Shown here: positions 4,242 through 35,543 of the stretch, one piece after another
How the letters are laid out: each line of letters opens with the position of its first letter
How positions within the stretch are numbered: position 1 is the first letter of the stretch
Origin: Myxococcaceae bacterium
GTDB taxonomy: Bacteria > Myxococcota > Myxococcia > Myxococcales > Myxococcaceae
Length of the DNA stretch: 64,000 nt
Direction of reading: 5' to 3'
Assembly (NCBI GenBank): GCA_016793095.1
Contig: JAEUJQ010000050.1
Span: 1-64,000 of the forward strand
The notes under the pieces: generated by a model
Database searches by the model: none
Told to the model about the DNA's origin: nothing
What the model saw: the letters and a program-made list of their open reading frames with translations, nothing else
Program-made: the position numbers and the translations under genes

Positions 4242-5312
4242 ATGCTCTCCTTCACTGCCCTCGTCCTCCTGACCTCCGCGCCGCTCGAGGTGCGGGTGCT
4301 CGAGCGCGAGAAGCCCTCGAAGGTGATGCTGGGCTCCGAGCGGCTCAGCTGTGACGAGCAGCCGCTGCCGGGCACGGTGGAGCTGACTGTCGGCCTCGAC
4401 GGCGTCGCCGTGAAGGGCCAGTCGAAGAGCTGTGGAGTGGTGCGCGCTGACGCGGTCTCCACCGTCACCGTGGGTGAGGTGACGCGGCGCTACCCCGGCG
4501 CGCTCGAGGTGACGGTCGAGGGCGGCCTGCTGCGGCTCATCAACACGGTGGACGTCGAGGCCTACCTGCCCTCCGTCGTGCACGCGGAGGCGCAGGGCTC
4601 TCCAGCGGCGGCGCTCGAGGCGCAGGCCATCGTCTCGCGCACGTTCGCGCTCACCGGGCGCCATCGGCATGAGCGCGCCGGCTACCACCTGTGCGACCTC
4701 ACCCACTGTCAGTGGTACCGCGGCGTCGAGCCCGACACGAAGGCGGCCGCCGACGCGGTGGCGAAGACGAGAGGCCAGGTGCTGATGGTGGGCGGCATCG
4801 CGCTGAAGCCGGCCTTCTTCCATGCCTCGTGCGGGGGACGCACCAGCGCGTCGTCCGACGTCTTCCACGAGGCGGGCGCGGGCCCCGGCGTGGACGACTC
4901 GACGAAGGAAGGTCCAGCCTGCCGCGAGGCGCCCGACTTCGAGTGGAGCTGGCAGGCCGACCGCGTGGAGCTCGCGAAGGCCCTGGGCGCGAAGCCAGAA
5001 GGAGACGCCTTCGTGCCGCTCTCGCGCGACAAGGGCGGCCGCGTGCTCGAGGTGTCGTCGTTCGGCAAGCGCATGGATGGCAGCGAGTTCGCGTCGCGCA
5101 TCGGCCGCGTCTTCGGCTGGCAGGCGCTGAAGAGCCTCAAGGTGACGGCCGAGGAGGTCGAGTCCACCGTCACCTTCAAGGGGCGCGGCCTCGGCCACGG
5201 CGTCGGCCTCTGTCAGCACGGCGCGCGCGCGCTGGCGGCGAAGGGCTGGGACGCGAAGAAGCTGCTGCTCCGCTACTTCCCCGACAGCCAGGTGCGCCAG
5301 GCCGAGGAGTGA
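4242..5312 (+). CDS. SpoIID/LytB-domain protein
   Basis: A 356-residue exported protein with a SpoIID domain. In endospore formers SpoIID is a lytic transglycosylase acting on stem-peptide-free (denuded) glycan strands. Homologues in Gram-negatives are taken to be peptidoglycan-remodelling enzymes. Visible family landmarks are DVEAYLPSVVHAEAQGSPAAALEAQAIVSRTFAL (about residues 105-140, shown here by its ends DVEAYLP and RTFAL), the ASCGGRTS segment, and the C-terminal GHGVGLCQHGA. The glutamate in the AEAQG stretch corresponds to the catalytic position of SpoIID. A weak signal sequence begins at MLSFTALVLL. It follows a secreted protein at 11 bp. Confidence 0.88.
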   Translation: MLSFTALVLLTSAPLEVRVLEREKPSKVMLGSERLSCDEQPLPGTVELTVGLDGVAVKGQSKSCGVVRADAVSTVTVGEVTRRYPGALEVTVEGGLLRLINTVDVEAYLPSVVHAEAQGSPAAALEAQAIVSRTFALTGRHRHERAGYHLCDLTHCQWYRGVEPDTKAAADAVAKTRGQVLMVGGIALKPAFFHASCGGRTSASSDVFHEAGAGPGVDDSTKEGPACREAPDFEWSWQADRVELAKALGAKPEGDAFVPLSRDKGGRVLEVSSFGKRMDGSEFASRIGRVFGWQALKSLKVTAEEVESTVTFKGRGLGHGVGLCQHGARALAAKGWDAKKLLLRYFPDSQVRQAEE

Positions 5313-5420
5313 GGAGCGCACCCGCCCGTCCGACGGGCCCGTTCCCACCTGAACGCACAGTGTCGGCCTTGCGACGTGAGGCCGGCGGGCGATGATGCGC
5401 CCAGCCCTGCGGGGCGACGA

Positions 5421-5479
5421 AAGGAGGTGGTGCCTTGCCCAGTCACGAACAAGGAACCATCTCCGCGGTGACCCTCTGA
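5421..5479 (+). CDS. 14-codon ORF with a near-ideal Shine-Dalgarno (candidate leader peptide)
   Basis: An unusually complete ribosome binding site, AAGGAGGTG at 5421-5429, sits six or seven bases before a TTG at 5435. That TTG opens a 14-codon frame (MPSHEQGTISAVTL, stop 5477-5479). A GTG at 5430 in another frame is an alternative but is too close to the binding site. The last codons lie in the 5' arm of a nested stem-loop (5461-5509), so a translating ribosome would open that stem. This is the arrangement of a leader peptide or attenuator. The coding call is an inference from the ribosome binding site and position; the peptide has no known relative that I recognise. Confidence 0.4.
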
Positions 5480-5561
5480 AGCTCTGAGCGCTTCAGTGCC
5501 ATCGCGGAGTGGTACACAGACAGCGTTTTCAGGGCCGCCTCGCTCGTCCAGGAGGCGGCCC
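5461..5561 (+). ncRNA. Nested stem-loop plus terminator-like hairpin (candidate structured RNA or attenuator)
   Basis: Three helices can be read directly. An outer stem pairs 5461-5470 with 5500-5509 (CTCCGCGGTG with CATCGCGGAG, one G.U pair). An inner stem pairs 5476-5482 with 5490-5496 (CTGAAGC with GCTTCAG) around a 7-base loop. Downstream, a perfect 10-bp GC-rich hairpin pairs 5532-5541 with 5552-5561 (GGGCCGCCTC with GAGGCGGCCC). The last looks like a terminator but has only scattered T after it. The element sits between the SpoIID gene and the hydrolase gene. It could be an attenuator for the hydrolase or a free small RNA. Confidence 0.5.
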
Positions 5562-5589
5562 GTTCGTTCGCCGCTCCCCGAACCACCCG

Positions 5590-6543
5590 ATGCCCCGGCT
5601 GCCTGACGACTTCCGACCTGCCCTTGGCCTCTCGAACGGGCACGCCCAGACGTTCTTCGCGGCGCTGCGTCGTCGGCCGAAGGTGCCTCCGCTCACGCGC
5701 CGGCGCTTCGAGACGCCCGACGGCGACTTCGTGGACGTGGACGTGCTGGAGGGCGAGGTGGGCGCCCCGACGGTGCTGCTGCTGCACGGCCTCGAGGGCT
5801 CGTCCGCCTCGTCGTACATCGCCGAGACGCTGCGGTTGCTCGCGGCGAAGCGGTGGAACGCCTGGGCGCTCAACTTCCGCGGCTGCTCTGGTGAGCCGAA
5901 CCGGGTGCCTGCGTCGTACTGCTCCGGAGACACTCGCGACCTCGCCTTCCTCGTGGAGCGGCTCCCCGGGCCCCGCTTCGCCATCGGCTTCTCGCTCGGC
6001 GCCAGCGTGCTGCTGAACGGCTTGTCCCGGCTGAAGGTCCCGCTCGACGCGGCGGTGGCGGTGAGCGCGCCCTTTCACCTCGAGGTGAGCGCGAAGGCCA
6101 TCGACGCCCGCGGCGGCTTCGGGCCCGTGTACCTGAATCACTTCCTGCCCTCGTTGAAGGCGAAGGCGCTGGCCATGGCGCAGCGGTTCCCGGCGCACCT
6201 CGACGCCGACGTCATTCGCGGCGTGCGGACGATTCGCGACTTCGACCATCACGTGACGGCGCGGGTGTTCGGCTACGACTCGGCCGAGGACTACTACGCG
6301 CGGTGCTCGTCAGCGCCGCTGCTCGCCAGCATCGAGGCGCCGACGCTGCTCATCACCGCCGAAGACGACGCCATCGCGCCGGCCTCGTCGCTCCCTCCCG
6401 GGGTGGAGAGACAAGCGGCGGTGCACCTGCTGCGAACGCGCCACGGCGGGCACGTCGGGTATGTCGCGGGCACGCCGCTCACACCGGGGTGGTGGGCCGA
6501 GCGGCGGGCGGTCGAGTGGCTCGCGAACGAGGTGAGGCGATGA
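5590..6543 (+). CDS. YheT-type alpha/beta hydrolase
   Basis: A 317-residue alpha/beta hydrolase of the YheT (abhydrolase 1/3) family, a probable carboxylesterase of unknown natural substrate. The family opening NGHAQTFFAAL is at about residues 16-26. The oxyanion strand LLLHGLEGSS is near 63-72. The nucleophile elbow GFSLGA puts the catalytic Ser near 135. The acid lies in LLITAEDDAIAP and the His in RHGGHVGY near the C-terminus. ATG 5590 is chosen because it aligns with the usual family start. The frame stays open to 5509 but that runs into the stem-loop element. It overlaps the DUF2378 gene by 4 bp, so the two are translationally coupled. Confidence 0.9.
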   Translation: MPRLPDDFRPALGLSNGHAQTFFAALRRRPKVPPLTRRRFETPDGDFVDVDVLEGEVGAPTVLLLHGLEGSSASSYIAETLRLLAAKRWNAWALNFRGCSGEPNRVPASYCSGDTRDLAFLVERLPGPRFAIGFSLGASVLLNGLSRLKVPLDAAVAVSAPFHLEVSAKAIDARGGFGPVYLNHFLPSLKAKALAMAQRFPAHLDADVIRGVRTIRDFDHHVTARVFGYDSAEDYYARCSSAPLLASIEAPTLLITAEDDAIAPASSLPPGVERQAAVHLLRTRHGGHVGYVAGTPLTPGWWAERRAVEWLANEVRR

Positions 6544-34745: not shown

Positions 34746-35543
34746 TCACGAGCCAGCCTTCCTTTTCCCACGTCGCGGCGACTTCGGCTCATCGGCCGGC
34801 GGCGGGTCGGTGAGCAGCCGCGCGAGGTACCGGTCCTTGTTCATCAAGAAGTCCCGCGTGAGCAGGTAGTGCTCGGTCTCCTCGTACGTCACCGGCGTGA
34901 TGGCGGTCTGGGAGAACGAGTAGAGCTGCGCGTGCGGGTACGCGAGCACGATGGGTGAGTGCGTCGCGATGATGAACTGGCAGTCCTCGAAGCGGGCGAG
35001 CCGGTCGATGGCGACGAGCAGGGCCAACTGCCGCTGCGGCGACAGGGCCGCCTCGGGCTCGTCCAGCAGGTACAGCCCGTGCTCGCCGAAGCGGTGGTTC
35101 ACCAACGCCATGAAGGACTCGCCGTGGGACTGCTCGTGCAGTGACTTGCCGCCGTAGCTGCGCAGAATGCCGTCGCCGATGCGGTCAATCTCGCTCGCCA
35201 CGTTGAAGAAGCTCTCGGCGCGCAGGAAGAAGCCGGTCGCTTCGCGGTTGGTGCCGCGCGAGAGGCGGAGGCAGGAGCGCAGCGGGTACTCCTCGTGCTT
35301 CGTCGCGAACTTGAAGTTCTTCGTGCCGCCCTCGGGGTTGAAGCCCGCGGCCACCGCGATGGCCTCGAGCAGCGTCGACTTGCCGGTGCCGTTCTCGCCG
35401 ACGAAGAACGTCACCTGCGGGTGCAGCTCGAGCACGTCGAGGTGCTTGATGGCCGGCACCGTGAAGGGGTGCTTCGTGCGGTCGGGGATGAACCCGGGCA
35501 GCAGCTGCACCGAACGGACGAAGCGGGTGAACGGGCCGAGCAT
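34746..35543 (-). CDS. AAA-family ABC-like ATPase (AAA_21/SMC-related)
   Basis: A 265-residue ATPase of the ABC/SMC-like AAA_21 type. Walker A is GENGTGKST (about 49-57), Walker B is LLDEPEAALSPQRQ with the catalytic Glu after DEP, and the H-loop is in IIATHSPIVLAY. Related short ATPases are predicted to act in nucleic acid or stress responses, and similar proteins occur in retron and OLD-nuclease systems, but no effector gene is adjacent here. ATG 35541-35543 fits the family N-terminus. Function is not assigned. Confidence 0.8.
   Translation of the reverse strand: MLGPFTRFVRSVQLLPGFIPDRTKHPFTVPAIKHLDVLELHPQVTFFVGENGTGKSTLLEAIAVAAGFNPEGGTKNFKFATKHEEYPLRSCLRLSRGTNREATGFFLRAESFFNVASEIDRIGDGILRSYGGKSLHEQSHGESFMALVNHRFGEHGLYLLDEPEAALSPQRQLALLVAIDRLARFEDCQFIIATHSPIVLAYPHAQLYSFSQTAITPVTYEETEHYLLTRDFLMNKDRYLARLLTDPPPADEPKSPRRGKRKAGS

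Follow-up and report, generated by a model that had tools for sequence, protein, structure and literature searches.

A candidate stand-alone small RNA of the Myxococcaceae with a tiny reading frame and two competing hairpins at its ribosome binding site

A near-perfect ribosome binding site in front of an open reading frame (ORF) of only 14 codons, with stem-loops behind it, raises the question of whether the tiny frame serves the gene that follows or belongs to an RNA of its own. Such an arrangement lies at positions 5421 to 5561 of the window, by which we mean the whole 64,000-nucleotide stretch of Myxococcaceae DNA that was analyzed (GenBank assembly GCA_016793095.1, contig JAEUJQ010000050.1). 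The initial annotation likened it to a leader peptide in an attenuator and named an independent small RNA (sRNA) as the other possibility. To our knowledge, few sRNAs are known in these organisms. Myxobacteria lack Hfq (PMC5684412).

Layout of the element in the window

The element and its two neighboring genes lie on the forward strand, and the coordinates given in the initial annotation for the ribosome binding site, the ORF, a nested stem (5461-5509), a 10-bp hairpin (5532-5561), and a hydrolase gene 3' of them agree with the sequence. The ribosome binding site, AAGGAGGTG (5421-5429), is part of an extended Shine-Dalgarno (SD) sequence, segment A (5419-5434; GAAAGGAGGTGGTGCC), which is complementary to the 3' end of 16S rRNA (..GGAUCACCUCCUUUCU). 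The ORF (5435-5479) starts with UUG (TTG in the DNA), has 14 codons plus TGA, and encodes MPSHEQGTISAVTL. Within it lies an anti-SD, segment B (about 5450-5470; CAAGGAACCATCTCCGCGGTG), whose partner may be either A (5423-5437) or an anti-anti-SD located 3' of the stop codon, segment C (5500-5513; CATCGCGGAGTGGT). In the minimum free energy (MFE) fold of the window copy, the SD and the UUG are paired to CAAGGAACCATCTCC (5450-5464), a pairing that had gone unnoticed; this stretch shares bases with the nested stem on its 5' side. The partner of A and the start codon in this fold reads CAAGGAACCAUCUCC. The resulting hairpin A:B (5423-5464) closes the SD and the start codon. The alternative hairpin B:C (5456-5513), in which the SD is open, consists of the nested stem, with CTCCGCG (5461-5467) opposite CGCGGAG (5503-5509) in its outer part and CTGAAGC/GCTTCAG (5476-5482/5490-5496) in its inner part, and of an additional outer ACCA/UGGU. 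Because both hairpins use 5456-5464, they are mutually exclusive in their full forms. A 191-nt fold of the region has a predicted energy of -87.4 kcal/mol (z = -3.1).

Upstream of A, a candidate promoter is composed of a -35-like TTGCGA (5369-5374), where CTTGC is kept in nearly all close copies with diverged flanks, and a -10-like GATGAT (5391-5396), where (G)ATGATGCG is conserved among close copies; the transcript would be expected to start at about 5402-5404. We regard this promoter as tentative because it does not match the sigma-70 consensus, which is that of E. coli, although conserved upstream blocks are present; the Myxococcus-type copies introduced below carry a TTA-type hexamer 16 to 20 nt 5' of the SD. 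A predicted 4-bp hairpin, GCCC-UGCG-GGGC (5404-5415), likewise absent from the initial annotation, stands near the predicted 5' end, and its GCCCUUCGGGGC is conserved across the window's class, with a similar sequence in L170 and L172. At the other end lies an intrinsic-terminator-like hairpin (5532-5569) with perfect 10-bp arms (5532-5541 and 5552-5561) and a weak T tail, GTTCGTTC; neither of two scans called it a terminator. Outside the element, the 3' neighbor is an alpha/beta hydrolase gene (5590-6543, ATG at 5590; Abhydrolase_1, 4.9e-16), and the 5' neighbor, given as context only, encodes a SpoIID-domain protein (4242-5312; PF08486, 6.2e-21). Elsewhere in the window, a long proline-rich repeat of the VEPPAEPPA type (25-400) opens a long ORF, and 35043-35088, like a site at locus L043 (G006:C276:15174-15228), resembles the terminator part of the element and has no SD or ORF part.

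A single-copy family and its genomic contexts

The element recurs well above chance and passed the conservation test that had been proposed for its helices and ORF. A nucleotide search of 79 genomes recovered the region in 12 relatives, with E values from 8e-7 down to 6e-43. A 19-nt SD/start pattern, GAAAGGAGGTGRTGCCWTG, had exactly one match in each of 80 genomes, every one a member of the window's family; in all genomes searched (by our count, 96 in the family and 99 outside), it gave zero matches outside the family, and a reversed-pattern control gave zero matches altogether. A covariance model built from 39 pattern copies brought in loci L168 to L172 from the family itself and L174 from a second one; with two more patterns, L181 and L182 of this second family and L217 of a third were recovered. 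In total, 85 copies were accepted in the family and 4 outside it, which corresponds to one copy per genome in about 85 of the 96 Myxococcaceae genomes, no detectable copy in about 11, and 4 genomes in two other families of the same order. Model matches L173, L175, L176, and L177 were discarded, as were pattern matches L180, L184, L204, L205, and L212, all of which lack the ORF/fold/terminator layout. The MAFFT alignment misplaced B in L174 and L217.

The window's own genome holds no second good match, merely short GC-rich ones, and a search of a plasmid collection returned a chance match only. No Rfam 15 family scored above its gathering threshold in a scan of the window or in a permissive scan of the region. 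The Caulobacter sRNA CC2171 aligned over its full length at 5411-5561 with 13 bits (E = 1.3); its gathering score is 75, and this far weaker match is likely due to chance and was rejected. Our search of the literature, mostly outside subscription papers, found no description of such an RNA for myxobacteria. As far as sequence can tell, the element is a real RNA/ORF family of the order that is absent from Rfam.

Most copies fall into classes named after their peptides. The window belongs to the GTISA class, which encodes MxxHxQGTISAvxL-stop and usually lies 3' of the SpoIID-domain gene, the upstream neighbor in much of the class. The Myxococcus/Corallococcus-like class, referred to here as the ASTS or Myxococcus-type class and carrying a genus label inferred with a match to the sRNA Pxr among the grounds, encodes MxDSxxQASTSxxxA-stop. 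The SD stretch AGGAGGTG is present in every copy. In the GTISA class, segment C corresponds to a conserved CGCGGAGTGG located 3' of the stop codon; its counterpart in the ASTS class is CGGCGG.

Of 86 copies, 82 carry a T-tailed hairpin between +84 and +121 relative to the SD, at a nearly fixed distance of about 100 nt, and 81 copies reach a terminator score of at least 18, a value attained by 9% of shuffled controls. The window copy, given its GTTCGTTC tail, is among the four exceptions. The two arms are not the same from class to class and are separate from A:B and B:C, which fits a terminator and not an antiterminator partner. By eye, about 7 bp could form in the window between A and the terminator's 5' arm; as an antiterminator, this pairing was rejected because the ASTS class has a different arm.

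The carriers share no single downstream gene. The hydrolase adjoins the element in the window and several close relatives, six carriers of the window's class do not have it directly downstream, and convergent or unrelated genes flank the element in other carriers. At the Myxococcus-type locus (GAAAGGAGGTGATGCCTTGAACGACAGCAACTCC...), an ABC transporter gene lies 5', and on the 3' side come a small ORF, pyrG, and kdsA, the latter two named by sequence resemblance. Two features of this context were noted in passing. At L083, L101, and similar pyrG-context loci, a conserved CTCGGGAATG ... CCTGTT block directly 3' of the terminator has the appearance of an ECF-type promoter for the gene that follows. 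The small ORF ahead of pyrG, at +162 to +495 from the SD in L083 (cluster C2; 57 loci), contains cysteine (..NLFCLHYDGCLHQAVRRGWDGWSCRQCPL..) and has no Pfam match.

Reading frame and competing hairpins

The 16S 3' end of relatives reads GGCUGGAUCACCUCCUUUCU; no such site was found in the window's own assembly, and the tail was therefore taken from relatives. Segment A matches this end over 11 nt in the window's class and 13 nt in the Myxococcus-type class. In the 8.8-Mb genome of the window, GAAAGGAGGTG occurs only twice, and the second site is not followed by a start codon with a tiny ORF.

An in-frame ORF of 13 to 19 codons follows the SD in all 89 copies examined. The start codon is UUG in 82, AUG in 5, and GUG in 2, a share of UUG that is partly made by the search because the first pattern allowed only WTG. 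The distance between A and B varies, with 27, 30, 33, or 39 nt from the start codon to B, and B nevertheless keeps the same codon phase (phase 0) in 88 of the 89 copies, in each of which a codon begins with the U of its CCUCC anti-SD; as the copies are related by descent, this count does not represent 88 independent events. By inspection, at least four or five independent length changes have occurred between start codon and B. The stop codon lies 4 to 6 codons past B in every copy. Because the phase of B is fixed despite the varying distance and the stop follows so regularly, sequence comparison indicates that the ORF frame is under selection and that the amino acids are weakly so. The pN/pS ratio is 0.34 to 0.85 in codons 2 to 6, the loop codons, and exceeds 1 in the ORF tail in two of three classes, pointing to weak amino acid constraint outside B. 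The peptides, of 13 to 19 residues, are short, polar, and variable, and their shared core (TISA, STSA, TTSA, or ATSA) is encoded by B. Regulatory codons do not form a run in the ORF of any copy. The initial annotation had remarked that the peptide implies no target nutrient.

Hairpin A:B is present in both classes, with a shifted register and G-U/G-C swaps. All 13 pairs are kept in 24 of 24 Myxococcus-type sequences, a class in which the shuffle control was uninformative, and the lower 7 pairs are kept in all 39 sequences of the joint alignment, where the changes are one-sided (G-U/G-C) only. Covariation within a class is not visible because A hardly varies. What argues for A:B is the register shift between classes together with strongly differing B segments that still close A; in predicted folds, the hairpin is rebuilt with a very different B in L171, L174, L181, L182, and L217. 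Against shuffles of the ORF, A:B of single sequences is moderately better (z of -1.5 to -3.9), apart from L047. This locus (in genome G017) has the SD, an AUG, and a short ORF, lacks both the phase rule and clean A:B pairing, and is perhaps degenerate or a different solution.

For B:C, the 11 pairs of the window's class are formed in 96.8% of alignment cells, compared with 36 to 53% in slid controls. Changes on both sides were seen in three pairs, one of them only in the poorly aligned row of L091; C is misaligned in that row, yet compensation is also seen with the true C of L091 (CCACGG against CCGTGG). A core of 4 to 5 pairs is kept in the Myxococcus-type class, with looser pairing elsewhere. 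Taken together, A:B and B:C pair at 97 to 100%, against 36 to 54% in slides that break the structure.

When A is held open in the predicted folds of 85 copies, the best structure lies 4.3 to 14.1 kcal/mol above the MFE (median, 6.8). Median SD accessibility is 0.07, and the SD would be mostly closed at equilibrium; in seven copies, including that of the window, it is predicted to be partly open. B is paired in both predicted states. As it is common to A:B, B:C, and the ORF, its conservation could reflect only some of these needs.

Interpretation and relation to known systems

We consider it somewhat more probable than not, judging by these comparisons, that the element is an independent, translation-coupled, bistable small RNA or mRNA with a putative promoter and a terminator of its own. 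This sides with the independent sRNA of the initial annotation and adds to it a selected ORF and a putative SD switch. The attenuator layout did not hold up, since the terminator is not an arm of a conserved terminator/antiterminator pair and most carriers do not have the hydrolase downstream. Control of that gene in cis, by attenuation or at translation, would agree with the adjacency in the window and several close relatives and with the order of leader ORF and terminator; it appears very unlikely because the flanking genes differ among lineages, the downstream gene being different or convergent in L090, L091, L119, L120, L123, L127, and the whole Myxococcus-type class, and neither a conserved antiterminator nor regulatory codons are present. 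That GC-rich DNA folds easily might suggest a compositional artifact, or else a repeat or mobile element, but the single copy per genome, the empty control pattern, and the loss of pairing in the structure-breaking slides make this hardly credible.

Two other readings keep the element autonomous. It might be a trans-acting antisense sRNA that targets other mRNAs by base pairing through its exposed B (ACCAUCUCC / CCACCUCCG) or its SD-like C, with an ORF that is incidental or serves only to protect B. Its own terminator, single copy, and lack of a fixed neighbor would suit such a role, as would the resemblance of B to the 16S anti-SD core CACCUCC; an incidental ORF, however, would not fix the phase of B or the distance to the stop, and B is paired in both predicted states, so we consider this unlikely. 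A gene for a microprotein, with the peptide as product and a self-closing ribosome site in a layout like that of a type I toxin mRNA, would account for the conserved in-frame ORF and the very strong SD, and mRNAs that sequester their own SD are known from metastable toxin mRNAs (PMC6733600). We judge it improbable in view of peptides that are short, polar, and variable, whose core is what B must encode and on which purifying selection is weak.

The preferred reading, a translation-coupled bistable RNA, may work as follows. A short transcript of about 160 nt would run from the element's own promoter to its terminator (~5402 to 5569). Segment A would emerge first, as a near-ideal landing site for the 30S subunit and about the strongest available to the cell; B, emerging next, could close A and the start codon, and C, emerging last, could capture B and free A. 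With a ribosome on A, or with B held by C, A would be open and the ORF translated. With termination 4 to 6 codons beyond the anti-SD, a ribosome at the stop codon would be expected to cover B still, leaving the RNA open for the next ribosome; failing initiation, A:B would close. Translation itself, and not its peptide product, would then probably be the useful event, and the state of the RNA, with A, B, or C exposed, would report the ease of 30S initiation. Its output might be RNA stability, base pairing between other RNAs and whichever of B or C is exposed, or the peptide. The sequences show conservation, single copy, ORF frame, the two complementarities, and the terminator, whereas transcription, translation, switching, and any action in trans are inferred. 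A further-reaching reading, which we regard as doubtful, is a stand-alone RNA that senses free 30S subunits or the capacity for initiation: a near-perfect SD would compete with an anti-SD resembling the 16S tail, and the state of this single-copy housekeeping RNA would depend on ribosome occupancy.

Kept in single copy across most of a family and missing from Rfam, such an RNA gene is a strong candidate core regulator, and the fixed codon phase of an anti-SD within a tiny ORF is an unusual constraint, an RNA switch tied to the ribosome's frame. If the RNA does report ribosome availability, a link between translation capacity and regulation would become directly testable. Myxococcus xanthus should be usable as a model because Myxococcus-type carriers match a Pxr primer exactly.

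Comparison with Pxr itself had been suggested. Both are myxobacterial RNAs with stem-loops and a terminator, but Pxr lies at the nla19-NADH dehydrogenase locus under a sigma-54 promoter, and the portions of the Pxr reports available to us mention no ORF for it (PMC5684412, PMC5568312). Identity was rejected, as the element occupies a different locus with other neighbors. In seven Myxococcus-type carriers (G028, G041, G121, G146, G045, G155, and G160), a Pxr primer sequence (PMC5684412) maps 16 to 20 kb from the element on the same contig, which places two small RNA genes in one neighborhood. With trp-type attenuators the element shares a short leader ORF, mutually exclusive hairpins, and a terminator; it differs in that its terminator is not an alternative hairpin, the competing pair being A:B and B:C, and in having neither a conserved downstream gene nor regulatory codons. 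The metastable type I toxin mRNA hok has its SD closed by the mRNA itself, with hairpins that compete as transcription proceeds. AapA1 mRNA likewise closes its own SD and forms competing hairpins during transcription (PMC6733600). Sequestration of the SD in the full-length mRNA is also predicted for the element, through A:B, but unlike AapA1 and hok it encodes no hydrophobic toxin, its peptides being polar and of 13 to 19 residues, and its anti-SD lies inside the ORF in a fixed phase, in single copy in most genomes of the family. Like dual-function sRNAs, it combines its own terminator (with a weak T tail in the window) and a short conserved ORF. A further comparison is with rnTrpL of Sinorhizobium meliloti, which arises from attenuation before trpE, begins at the AUG, and, with its peptide peTrpL, acts in trans (PMC7298713). 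It is a small terminated transcript with a 14-codon ORF (PMC7298713), as the RNA of the window is predicted to be; the element differs in lacking a biosynthetic operon and Trp codons and in carrying a full extended SD together with a putative SD/anti-SD/anti-anti-SD switch.
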